From a virus, in the IMG/VR virus record IMGVR_UViG_3300046171_000085, positions 1-33,876 of that record: a DNA stretch of 33,876 nt. One strand, 5' to 3'. Each line of letters starts with the position of its first letter. Position 1 is the first letter of the stretch. Positions 12,510-14,222 of this stretch are shown here, piece by piece. A program made the translations under genes and the position numbers. Under the pieces are notes generated by a model. It was not told the origin of the DNA, did not search any database, and saw only the letters and a list, made by a program, of their open reading frames with translations.

Positions 12510-12935
12510 TTACTTGATATGCAATGACATTGGTTTGAGGTCGTCAGTATCAAAGTAAACGAACTCGTCACACAATCTAATCCTAGTGACTCCTCGCATT
12601 ATTAAACCTCGAACTAACTTTAATCTTTTCATATTATTAATTATTCTAATCTTTACTGCTAATCCAACTCTATGTGGATTCTTACTTATCAATGCTATTT
12701 TATCAGAGTGATGCTTGCAAGTATATGCTAATCTAATATCAAACCTCATTCTCTCCTCCTGTGCTATCTCATCTAATATAAAAACAGGCAACCTTTCCAT
12801 AAAGTTCTTTCCTGTCTTAATACTACAACGCCCACACTTACACATAAACTGAGACCAAAGCAACTTCCTTAATCCCTCTTTATCATCCTCTTCACTGTAA
12901 CCTATTTCATATTGTGGGCGATGTAATAATGACAT
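12510..12935 (-). CDS. M15 peptidase-like protein with altered active site
   Basis: A 141-residue protein. After C-K-C-G-R-C near 32-37, the order R-L-A-Y-T-C-K-H-H, N-P-H-R-V-G-L-A-V-K-I-R-I, M-R-G-V-T-R-I-R-L and E-F-V-Y-F-D-T-D-D resembles small M15 (D-Ala-D-Ala carboxypeptidase-like) proteins: S-x-H-x-x-G-x-A-x-D-I and F-x-H-x-D. Here the metal-binding Asp is Lys (A-V-K-I) and the last His is Tyr (V-Y-F-D), so zinc catalysis is unlikely. It is a monocistronic unit with its own promoter and terminator, separate from lysis genes. It may have been reused as a binding or regulatory protein. The fold assignment is an inference. Confidence 0.5.
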   Translation of the reverse strand: MSLLHRPQYEIGYSEEDDKEGLRKLLWSQFMCKCGRCSIKTGKNFMERLPVFILDEIAQEERMRFDIRLAYTCKHHSDKIALISKNPHRVGLAVKIRIINNMKRLKLVRGLIMRGVTRIRLCDEFVYFDTDDLKPMSLHIK

Positions 12936-12942
12936 AACACTA

Positions 12943-12950
12943 CAAATATA
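12943..12950 (-). promoter_or_regulatory. Promoter -7 box TATATTTG for the 12510-12935 gene
   Basis: Exact TAnnTTTG match seven bases upstream of the ATG at 12935, so the mRNA would be nearly leaderless. The -33 region is a T-run at about the right spacing. Confidence 0.6.
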
Positions 12951-13005
12951 ATAAATAATAGGTATATAAAAAAGGGATAGTTATTAACATTGTTAGTAAC
13001 TTAAC

Positions 13006-13036
13006 TTGACTTTCTGCGGAAAAAACGCTACCTTTG
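13006..13036 (+). promoter_or_regulatory. Rightward promoter (TTG-20-TACCTTTG)
   Basis: TTG at 13006-13008, a 20-nt spacer and TACCTTTG at 13029-13036, with a following C, make an excellent Bacteroidota promoter on the plus strand. It is divergent from the promoter at 12943-12950. Expected start near 13041-13043. Confidence 0.75.
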
Positions 13037-13040
13037 CTTA

Positions 13041-13180
13041 AACTTTGTAAAAACAGCCACAAGGCTCACAAAAGCCGAAGTGGCGAAATTGTCCCACGTA
13101 TAAATCAAGTATTTTTCTTCAAAATACGATTTCTACTCTTTGCAAAGCCAACTATACAGGATAGCTATGTTCTATAGCCA
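13041..13180 (+). ncRNA. Rightward structured non-coding RNA
   Basis: Downstream of the 13006-13036 promoter there is no credible gene before the holin gene, which runs the other way. Two strong hairpins are visible. The first is nested: GCCAC (13056-13060), GGCT (13063-13066), AGCC (13073-13076), GTGGC (13080-13084). The second has AAATC-AA-GTATTTT (13102-13115), loop TCTTC, AAAATAC-GATTT (13121-13132). A small palindrome CTTTGCAAAG follows at 13138-13147. The right end is unclear; the GTTTAAYATG hairpin at 13185-13221 is a possible end. It is not a tRNA. It may be a regulatory RNA, or structured origin DNA. Confidence 0.55.
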
Positions 13181-13221
13181 AAACAGGGGCATTATGTTAA
13201 ACAACCCCCAGAATATTAAAC
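13181..13221 (-). terminator. GTTTAAYATG hairpin after the holin gene
   Basis: Leftward: GTTTAATATTCTGGGG (from 13221), then GTTTAACATAAT (from 13202), then GCCCC and TGTTTTGG. GGGG and CCCC pair with the second element in the loop and a U-rich stretch follows. It starts four bases after the holin stop and is the end of the late lysis block; it also faces the rightward RNA. Confidence 0.65.
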
Positions 13222-13224
13222 AAG

Positions 13225-13701
13225 TTATTTCTTCCAGTTCTTAGTTATTTTTTCGGCACTTCTTGCCCCAAAATAACCTCCATAAACAAGAAGCAGTAGT
13301 GAAGATAGTAAATCAATCCAATTAGAGGCTATTTTAAAGCCCTCTAATGAACTATCTAGTATTATGTATACAAATAGAGTCAAAGTCAAGAATCCAAGGC
13401 TTAGAGGCCTTATATTCTTGCTTAACCAACTATCAGAGTTCATGTCAGCAACCCAACGCTTAGTTGACTCCTGCATTTCAATCATATCATATCTTAATTC
13501 CTCTAATAGCAACTCCTTATCAGCTTCGCTGAGTTGTTTATTTGTGTCAATCTTATTTGCAAGTTCTTTTAACTGGTCTATTCCAGTTATGCCACCAGCT
13601 ATTGATAATAGTTCTGGTGCTACTTCCTTGCCTTGTTTTACTAGCCAACGTAAAGCGTCTCCGACTCTTGTAGTTCCGTTCTTTTTCTTATAATCACCCA
13701 T
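13225..13701 (-). CDS. Holin of the GTA/3TM type
   Basis: A 158-residue protein with a soluble N-terminal half (K-E-L-A-N-K-I-D-T, then a D-K-E-L-L-L-E-E-L-R-Y-D helix), then W-V-A-D-M-N-S-D-S-W-L-S-K-N-I-R-P near 84-99, two hydrophobic segments (about 100-118 and 126-146) and an end G-x-Y-F-G-A-R-S-A-E-K-I. The A-D-x-x-S-x-x-W-L-x-x-x-x-R-P motif and the closing G-A-R-S/T-x-E-K are typical of holin_3TM proteins. It overlaps the endolysin gene by eight bases, forming the lysis pair, and is the last late gene. Confidence 0.75.
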   Translation of the reverse strand: MGDYKKKNGTTRVGDALRWLVKQGKEVAPELLSIAGGITGIDQLKELANKIDTNKQLSEADKELLLEELRYDMIEMQESTKRWVADMNSDSWLSKNIRPLSLGFLTLTLFVYIILDSSLEGFKIASNWIDLLSSLLLLVYGGYFGARSAEKITKNWKK

Positions 13702-14071
13702 TCCAACGTGCTTTAGTTTTTCTAATATCGTAGTGTGTAAAATTCTTGTAGTTGCCTAAACCTCCTTGCAACATGAGACCCATATCAATTAAGTCTTCTA
13801 TAAGTGCAAATACCTGTGCTGGATTAAGGCCGTCTATTGTGATGTCTGCTGCTTGGCCTAGCAGATGGCGTGAGTTTGGTACTCCACCTATATCTTGATT
13901 ATGAGCTTCCGACCTGAAACCACTATTAATTCTTATAGCTCTTCCTGTGTAGTCTCTCAGGAATTGTAGTTGTCCTGCAAGTTTAATGATGTTCTCGTAA
14001 GCCTCTAAGGGCATTTCGCCACCACCTTTGCACTCAAACTCTTTTAGCTTAAAGTTCTTTGTCAGTTTCAT
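13694..14071 (-). CDS. M15 endolysin (D-Ala-D-Ala carboxypeptidase-like)
   Basis: Start at ATG 14071 (MKLTKNFKLKEFECK), 125 residues; an upstream in-frame extension is not needed. The zinc motif is S-R-H-L-L-G-Q-A-A-D-I (S-x-H-x(3)-G-x-A-x-D) near 67-77 with the third ligand in F-T-H-Y-D near 110-114. G-F-R-S-E-A-H-N lies before it. It cuts peptide cross-links in host peptidoglycan. No signal peptide, so it needs the adjacent holin. Confidence 0.9.
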   Translation of the reverse strand: MKLTKNFKLKEFECKGGGEMPLEAYENIIKLAGQLQFLRDYTGRAIRINSGFRSEAHNQDIGGVPNSRHLLGQAADITIDGLNPAQVFALIEDLIDMGLMLQGGLGNYKNFTHYDIRKTKARWNG

Positions 14072-14222
14072 TCTTTCTCTTGTAGGTTGCGTATATCTTC
14101 TGGAACGTATAAAAGATAGTAGCCAAAAGAAGTACAATTTTTAGACTATTTTCAACAGCAGTAAAACTAACACCTAAAGTAATTATATTAAATATGTACA
14201 ATTTTATATCTTCTAAACTCAT
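14049..14222 (-). CDS. Small membrane protein, 57 aa
   Basis: Start chosen at ATG 14222 (MSLEDIKLYIFNIITLGVSF), overlapping the previous stop (ATGA); an upstream GTG would extend it by ten residues. Two hydrophobic stretches (about 6-22 and 27-41) and a basic, then acidic, tail (Y-K-R-K-N-E-T-D-K-E-L). Its end overlaps the endolysin gene by 23 bases. It may assist lysis (second holin or antiholin), inferred from position only. Confidence 0.7.
   Translation of the reverse strand: MSLEDIKLYIFNIITLGVSFTAVENSLKIVLLLATIFYTFQKIYATYKRKNETDKEL

Follow-up and report, generated by a model that had tools for sequence, protein, structure and literature searches.

A structured, apparently non-coding RNA family with a near-invariant unpaired core in marine phages and flavobacterial islands

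In the window, by which we mean the whole 33,876-nt stretch of viral DNA analysed here, the main open reading frames lie on the minus strand. The intergenic stretch 12936-13224, flanked by ORF141 and a holin gene, had been read from its letters as the site of a promoter that points right, against all neighbouring genes, into two perfect hairpins. This raises a question. Is there really an RNA gene here, and if so what might its product do? The features discussed below are collected in Table 1.

Table 1. Features at and around the RNA locus, in window coordinates
Feature	Position	Strand	Remarks
ORF141	12510..12935	-	Divergent early gene beside the RNA in phage groups; degenerate M15/Hedgehog-like
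Near-perfect 21-bp palindrome	12980..13000	.	GTTATTAACATTGTTAGTAAC; between the divergent promoters; candidate operator
Bacteroidota-type RNA promoter	13006..13036	+	TTGAC 13006-13010, 18-nt spacer, TACCTTTG 13029-13036
Predicted RNA	13041..13215	+	5' end inferred from the promoter; 3' end uncertain, somewhere after 13180
Hairpin P1	13056..13084	+	Outer stem GCCAC/GUGGC, internal loop AA/GAA, inner stem GGCU/AGCC, terminal loop type UCNCAAAA
Hairpin P2	13098..13136	+	AAAUC..GAUUU and GUAUUUU..AAAAUAC, AA bulge, U-C mismatch; lineage-specific
Invariant core	13153..13173	+	UAUACAGGAUAGCUAUGUUCU; 5' half unpaired, 3' half enters P3
Hairpin P3	13164..13178	+	GCUAU..AUAGC directly 3' of the core; 94% paired, A-U to G-U
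GGGG..CCCC inverted repeat, then TGTTTTG on minus	13186..13208	-	Candidate holin-operon terminator; direct sequence reading
Holin gene	13225..13701	-	Convergent with the RNA; PHROG 3427, E 1.6e-24

The promoter is indeed present, its direction is as described and it leads into two hairpins. It also stands back-to-back with the promoter of ORF141 (a minus-strand -7-like TATATTTG at 12943-12950) and faces the holin gene, as had been noted. The predicted RNA gene sits between the early and late genes of the virus. TTGAC-N16..20-TANNTTTG has a single match in 33.9 kb where 0.17 are expected, and at least one match arises in 16 of 100 shuffles. On its own the promoter match is not significant. It is credible because its position and sequence are conserved in relatives. 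Just upstream is a palindrome that the sequence-only reading had passed over, for which 0.1 chance matches are expected. Similar palindromes can be made out by eye upstream of the RNA promoter in L006, L008, L091, L092, L094, and L095.

ORF141 is the first early gene. It has the look of an M15/Hedgehog fold in which two of the three zinc ligands are lost (D to K, H to Y), as weakly indicated by tblastn matches to Rheinheimera phage M15 proteins and by Sonic Hedgehog as the top Foldseek hit of a model with a pLDDT of 60. The true M15 endolysin of the window is encoded at 13694-14137. The identity of ORF141 offers no direct clue to the role of the RNA. Another local element is the repeat CCCCATNATRTTAAAC, which occurs in four copies at 865-965, within extended non-coding sequence on the far left of the window, and in two copies at 13187-13223 beside the holin stop, with two more in L091-L093. 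These repeats mark the ends of both minus-strand operons and are candidates for an operon-end or regulator-binding element.

The locus recurs in marine phages. Protein searches with the holin and ORF141 recovered 95 viral loci, and the rightward promoter and RNA are found in every contig that has ORF141 and an intact upstream region, even where ORF141 is only 60-65% identical. Across groups whose remaining RNA sequence cannot be aligned, one segment is nearly invariant. This is the unpaired AUACAGGAUA-NN-URUGUU at 13154-13171, the most conserved part of the RNA and one that had not been singled out before. A protein-blind DNA search of IMG/VR with the 18-nt core ACAGGATARSTRTGTTNT then uncovered new groups (G, H, '188', and L297). 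An ORF141 homologue lies divergently beside the RNA, at E <= 1e-36, in 28 loci of these groups, namely those with enough flanking sequence. Two independent searches, one by ORF141 and one by the core, therefore lead to one two-part locus consisting of an early gene, divergent promoters and the RNA. The pair is present in dozens of uncultivated phage contigs; nearly all of the sequences compared come from uncultivated sources. Among the isolated phages of INPHARED, blastn with five probes gave no match to the RNA. An exception of another kind is the holin-gene similarity in Nonlabens phages P12024S/L, and their region is without the core. Core matches in L321, L322, L324, and L326, many promoterless matches and the G445/L373 model hit fall inside coding genes and are attributed to chance.

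The core itself is not entirely uniform. The dinucleotide after GGAUA varies (GC, GG, AG, or AC), and there is a second core class, AAGGGAUA-RY-UAUAUU, in L094, L095, L116, L122, and the second copy of L117-L120. In L117-L120, two tandem RNA units with separate promoter-like sites lie upstream of the ORF141 homologue, with a class-1 and a class-2 core, and L116 looks like a fusion of both units. To judge by their sequences, these tandem units look as if an sRNA gene were undergoing duplication.

Does the transcript fold? The predicted RNA has a folding energy of -37.9 kcal/mol (z = -2.75), which none of 200 shuffles equals. For the opposite strand, folded over the whole intergenic region, z is an unremarkable -0.60. 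In an alignment of 13 sequences from four groups the pairing of P1 is 95.3%, compared with 79.8 +/- 2.5 when shuffled, and it contains 16 double-change cells as opposed to 5.7 +/- 1.9 in shuffles, a count that 0 of 500 shuffles reach. This control ignores relatedness, so the comparison is strong evidence rather than a formal probability. The pairing collapses once the partner strand is slid. Between groups the outer stem is variable, the purine internal loop is AA/GAA, GUA/GAA, or GGA/GA and the inner stem is GGC/GCC in some and GCC/GGC in others, with a terminal loop of type UCNCAAAA; loop and inner stem are conserved in four groups. Nevertheless, the RNA body is highly variable and P1 is not recognisable in several groups.

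P2 is a different matter. In the closest group it is 98% paired, with a single change from U-A to C-G, and it is absent from L091-L093. Both of the hairpins first reported are real, but neither is perfect, given the internal loop of P1 and the AA bulge and U-C mismatch of P2, and the second extends over the limits in Table 1 rather than 13102-13132. Retention in relatives that keep the flanking genes holds for P1, but not for P2 outside the closest group. At the position of P3, other groups have a different short hairpin, as seen by eye. A long-range closing stem of the predicted fold (CUUUGUA/UGCAAAG) was dropped, being mismatched in relatives and only 80% paired. Reading of the sequences also finds a terminator-like hairpin and U-run within ~60 nt in groups G and H, L066-L072, L116-L120, and L323, while no clear terminator marks the 3' end of the RNA in the group of the window. 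In L066-L078, at the same locus downstream of the holin, arrayed repeats of 16-17 nt (..CTAGAAGT.. or AAGCTTCTTTAGAGTC) make up the body of the RNA. L179 has a 16-17-nt repeat array behind a TACCTTCG promoter, without the core.

A covariance model built on P1 and the core reached six groups outside its training set. Non-training members were found at 8.6e-5 (L259), 1.6e-4 (L285), 2.5e-4 (L323), and 4.4e-4 (L120), and others at 0.003 (L281), 0.003-0.004 (L260 and L266), 0.018 (L325), and 0.021 (L057). The comparison loci L010, L014, L022, L049, and L362 gave nothing at E <= 1. A form of the core is present in all of the members found in this way and probably contributes most of the score. Rfam yielded no match above the gathering threshold and only chance-level matches up to E 10. 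The family is definable as P1 with compensatory changes plus AUACAGGAUA-NN-URUGUU, both of which are found. Because versions with a near-unchanging core recur in many marine phages and in flavobacterial islands, this structured, apparently non-coding RNA family without an Rfam match is, at the level of sequence comparison, real. The earlier description of a structured, probably regulatory RNA is well supported in that conservation, covariation and the covariance model all agree with it, although the overall interpretation offered with it stands only in part.

The islands deserve separate attention. A core scan of 84,980 bacterial and archaeal genomes gave six hits, four of them inside coding genes and attributable to chance. 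The others, L323 and L325, are in Flavobacteriaceae MAGs. In both, a tyrosine integrase and a small gene flank the core and a promoter-like site, and L323 has a terminator-like end as well. Their integrases are 50% identical and their small proteins 41%. The L325 island (L325 227-4238) is 3,952 bp long and is bounded by direct repeats of a tRNA-Met gene, 60 nt each and 97% identical. It encodes the small protein (MPFNSESAREAGKKSRRGKS..), the RNA and the tyrosine integrase, and its cargo comprises an HNH endonuclease gene and a HIT-domain gene, the latter weakly similar to defence proteins. No capsid or replication gene was recognised in it. It may be a minimal satellite of phages in Flavobacteriaceae.

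A search with the small protein located a third RNA-bearing island, L333/L359, in which the integrase 3' end is still readable, and further islands without the RNA. Among the latter is L362 3441-7424 (G319), a 3,941-bp sister island with tRNA-Ala repeats, an integrase, the same small-protein family and different cargo, in which the spacer of ~515 nt between the integrase and the small gene is without the core. In one flavobacterial genome, G346, seven places are similar to the small island protein (e.g., L333, L349, L354-L358), two of them interrupted by stops, as if islands may accumulate in some hosts. A role for this protein as a terminase small subunit was rejected; it has no family match and is unlike the protein encoded beside the window terminase. 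The three islands with the RNA share the promoter, the core and a same-strand downstream gene. For this reason the RNA appears independent of its phage neighbours. It is also not a chromosomal housekeeping RNA, since matches are nearly absent from 398 genomes of the order, where the known island is the sole genuine match and one other hit lies inside a gene.

What might such an RNA do? The reading that we prefer is that it is a discrete trans-acting small RNA, regulatory or decoy, whose core would contact a conserved partner. We put the probability of this at about one half. Its own promoter, its fixed orientation and a changeable body around an unpaired invariant core make this the best explanation, and the tandem duplication in L117-L120 and the presence in unrelated elements fit it as well. 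That the RNA is discrete is suggested by the promoter, P1, the core, the short hairpin and several terminator-like ends, together with the lack of a conserved reading frame. The proposed sequence of events is that, as infection begins, a host-type promoter of its own would drive synthesis of a small RNA of ~120-200 nt, with the first early gene transcribed in the opposite direction. P1 and P3 would stabilise the RNA and present the single-stranded core, which might contact either another RNA or an RNA-binding protein of flavobacterial or phage origin, and so sequester or guide it. The partner would then be something that both phages and islands need to control. We read the sequences as a new family of small RNAs of mobile elements, which probably act in trans and early.

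Perhaps the partner is another RNA. However, at the translation starts of five contigs the core forms no better duplexes than shuffled cores do, and no strong complementarity to the rRNA fragments examined was found. The decoy suggested at the outset is one version of the preferred reading, but the search for targets at translation starts was negative. That the dinucleotide varies speaks against a single fixed RNA as target, and a protein partner is therefore somewhat more likely. Mimicry of the base of the 23S rRNA L1 stalk, an idea prompted by AGGATAGGTG and ACCACCCTTTAAT, is unsupported by flavobacterial 23S. At most 10 nt of the core match in some members, there is no match of 10 or more in the window, and the 13 nt that L094 shares with E. 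coli shrink to a shorter match in flavobacterial 23S. What if the RNA, common to lytic-type flavophages and to 4-kb islands integrated at tRNA genes, is a handle that plugs the islands into the phage cycle? In this scenario the phage would need the RNA for a replication or takeover step and the islands would carry a copy, being amplified by the phage or interfering with it. This idea is tentative and rather unlikely.

The main alternative to a trans-acting RNA is a replication origin, at which the transcript would prime DNA synthesis or open the duplex and the islands would be replicated by the machinery of a helper phage. No replication gene was recognised in the islands (one of just 3,952 bp), which carry an integrase, the small protein and cargo, whereas the PICMI satellites of Vibrio, comparable in scale, depend on a primase-like gene (PMC10803314). 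The locus is also AT-rich, divergent and at the early/late boundary, and in the groups of the window and of L091-L093 the 3' end has CCCCATNATRTTAAAC repeats beside it. However, GC skew is flat with no inflection at the locus, and the repeats are not tied to the RNA, being absent by reading from the G, H, 188, and island groups and having four further copies at 865-965. In several groups the core is followed by terminator-like structures, and tandem copies with diverged cores fit poorly with an origin. An origin or primer is possible but unlikely, and nothing positive supports it. An anti-defence mimic, either an RNA anti-CRISPR (Racr) or a type III antitoxin mimic, is slightly less likely. 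An early, strongly promoted, structured RNA on several kinds of mobile element would suit it, and the 16-17-nt repeated units at the L066 and L179 loci recall repeat-type RNAs, but no CRISPR-repeat mimic was recognised by eye, Rfam has no match and the unpaired core is not a repeat.

Other explanations are improbable, among them that the core is the ribosome-binding site of a translated minigene or leader peptide, with AGGA, five bases and AUG or GUG. Most class-1 cores do contain AGGA-N5-RUG, and group G reads AUG UUC UAA. However, the start codon is GCG in L090, GUA in L117/L120, and AUA in L094/L095/L116/L122, and by reading the frame is anywhere between 2 and ~36 codons long and encodes no conserved peptide. 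A cis-acting DNA site, for packaging or for binding a regulator, that merely resembles an RNA gene is about as improbable. Protein-binding DNA sites can be as short and nearly invariant as the core, yet the compensatory changes in P1, the upstream promoter in fixed orientation and the terminator-like ends speak against such a site. The least probable of these explanations is cis-antisense or convergent-transcription control of the holin/lysis operon. The RNA faces the holin in the window and many relatives, and read-through would be antisense to holin mRNA. Nevertheless, the antisense role first suggested is not supported by comparison. The holin family changes in L090-L093, other sequence lies downstream in L266, L281, and L313, and what is conserved is the RNA itself and not complementarity to the holin. 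Such control is unlikely because the RNA also occurs without a holin, as in the islands, where it lies beside an integrase.

How does this RNA compare with known systems? Phage lambda OOP RNA is a defined antisense to cII, and P4 CI RNA acts on a leader. The RNA here resembles them as a short phage or satellite RNA near a control region, but no comparable target was found for it. Sponge RNAs of the CsrB/RsmZ type have multiple GGA motifs in hairpin loops that are bound by CsrA, and ACAGGAU in the core resembles such GGA sites. A CsrA-titrating sRNA is nevertheless rejected; there is a single GGA, it is single-stranded and it is not kept in L057, L072, and L094. To our knowledge, CsrA is not typical of Bacteroidota.

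Racrs are also phage-borne small non-coding RNAs and are thought to neutralise a host function, but they mimic CRISPR repeats (PMC10651486), whereas the RNA here is a hairpin plus an invariant unpaired core in which the eye recognises no repeat mimic. The Bacteroides sRNAs FopS/GibS, which are bound by RbpB, have canonical Bacteroidota promoters, a conserved single-stranded stretch and paralogous copies (PMC11697453), and these three features have their likeness here. However, FopS RNAs are chromosomal and have a 5'-terminal seed as well as a terminator hairpin (PMC11697453), while this RNA is on mobile elements and Rfam searches give no sequence match; a link to RbpB/FopS was dropped for want of sequence evidence. 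PICMI are tiny integrase-bearing islands of Vibrionaceae that reside at fis and carry alpA and a primase-like gene (PMC10803314). The islands described here are likewise tiny (about 1/8 of a phage genome), integrase-bearing and without capsid genes, but they are at tRNA genes, carry the integrase, small protein, RNA and cargo, and are candidate satellites. In broad outline the RNA is like other phage-borne small RNAs, and no defining feature of the known classes compared here was recognised in it.

Few phage-encoded structured RNAs are known, and a brief search of the open-access literature found none described for marine Flavobacteriaceae phages. An invariant core that persists amid turnover of the rest of the RNA, and that is common to phages and minimal islands, points to a conserved flavobacterial partner. 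For a lineage that is abundant in the ocean, the identity of that partner could reveal a step by which hosts are taken over, defences are evaded or satellites act as parasites.
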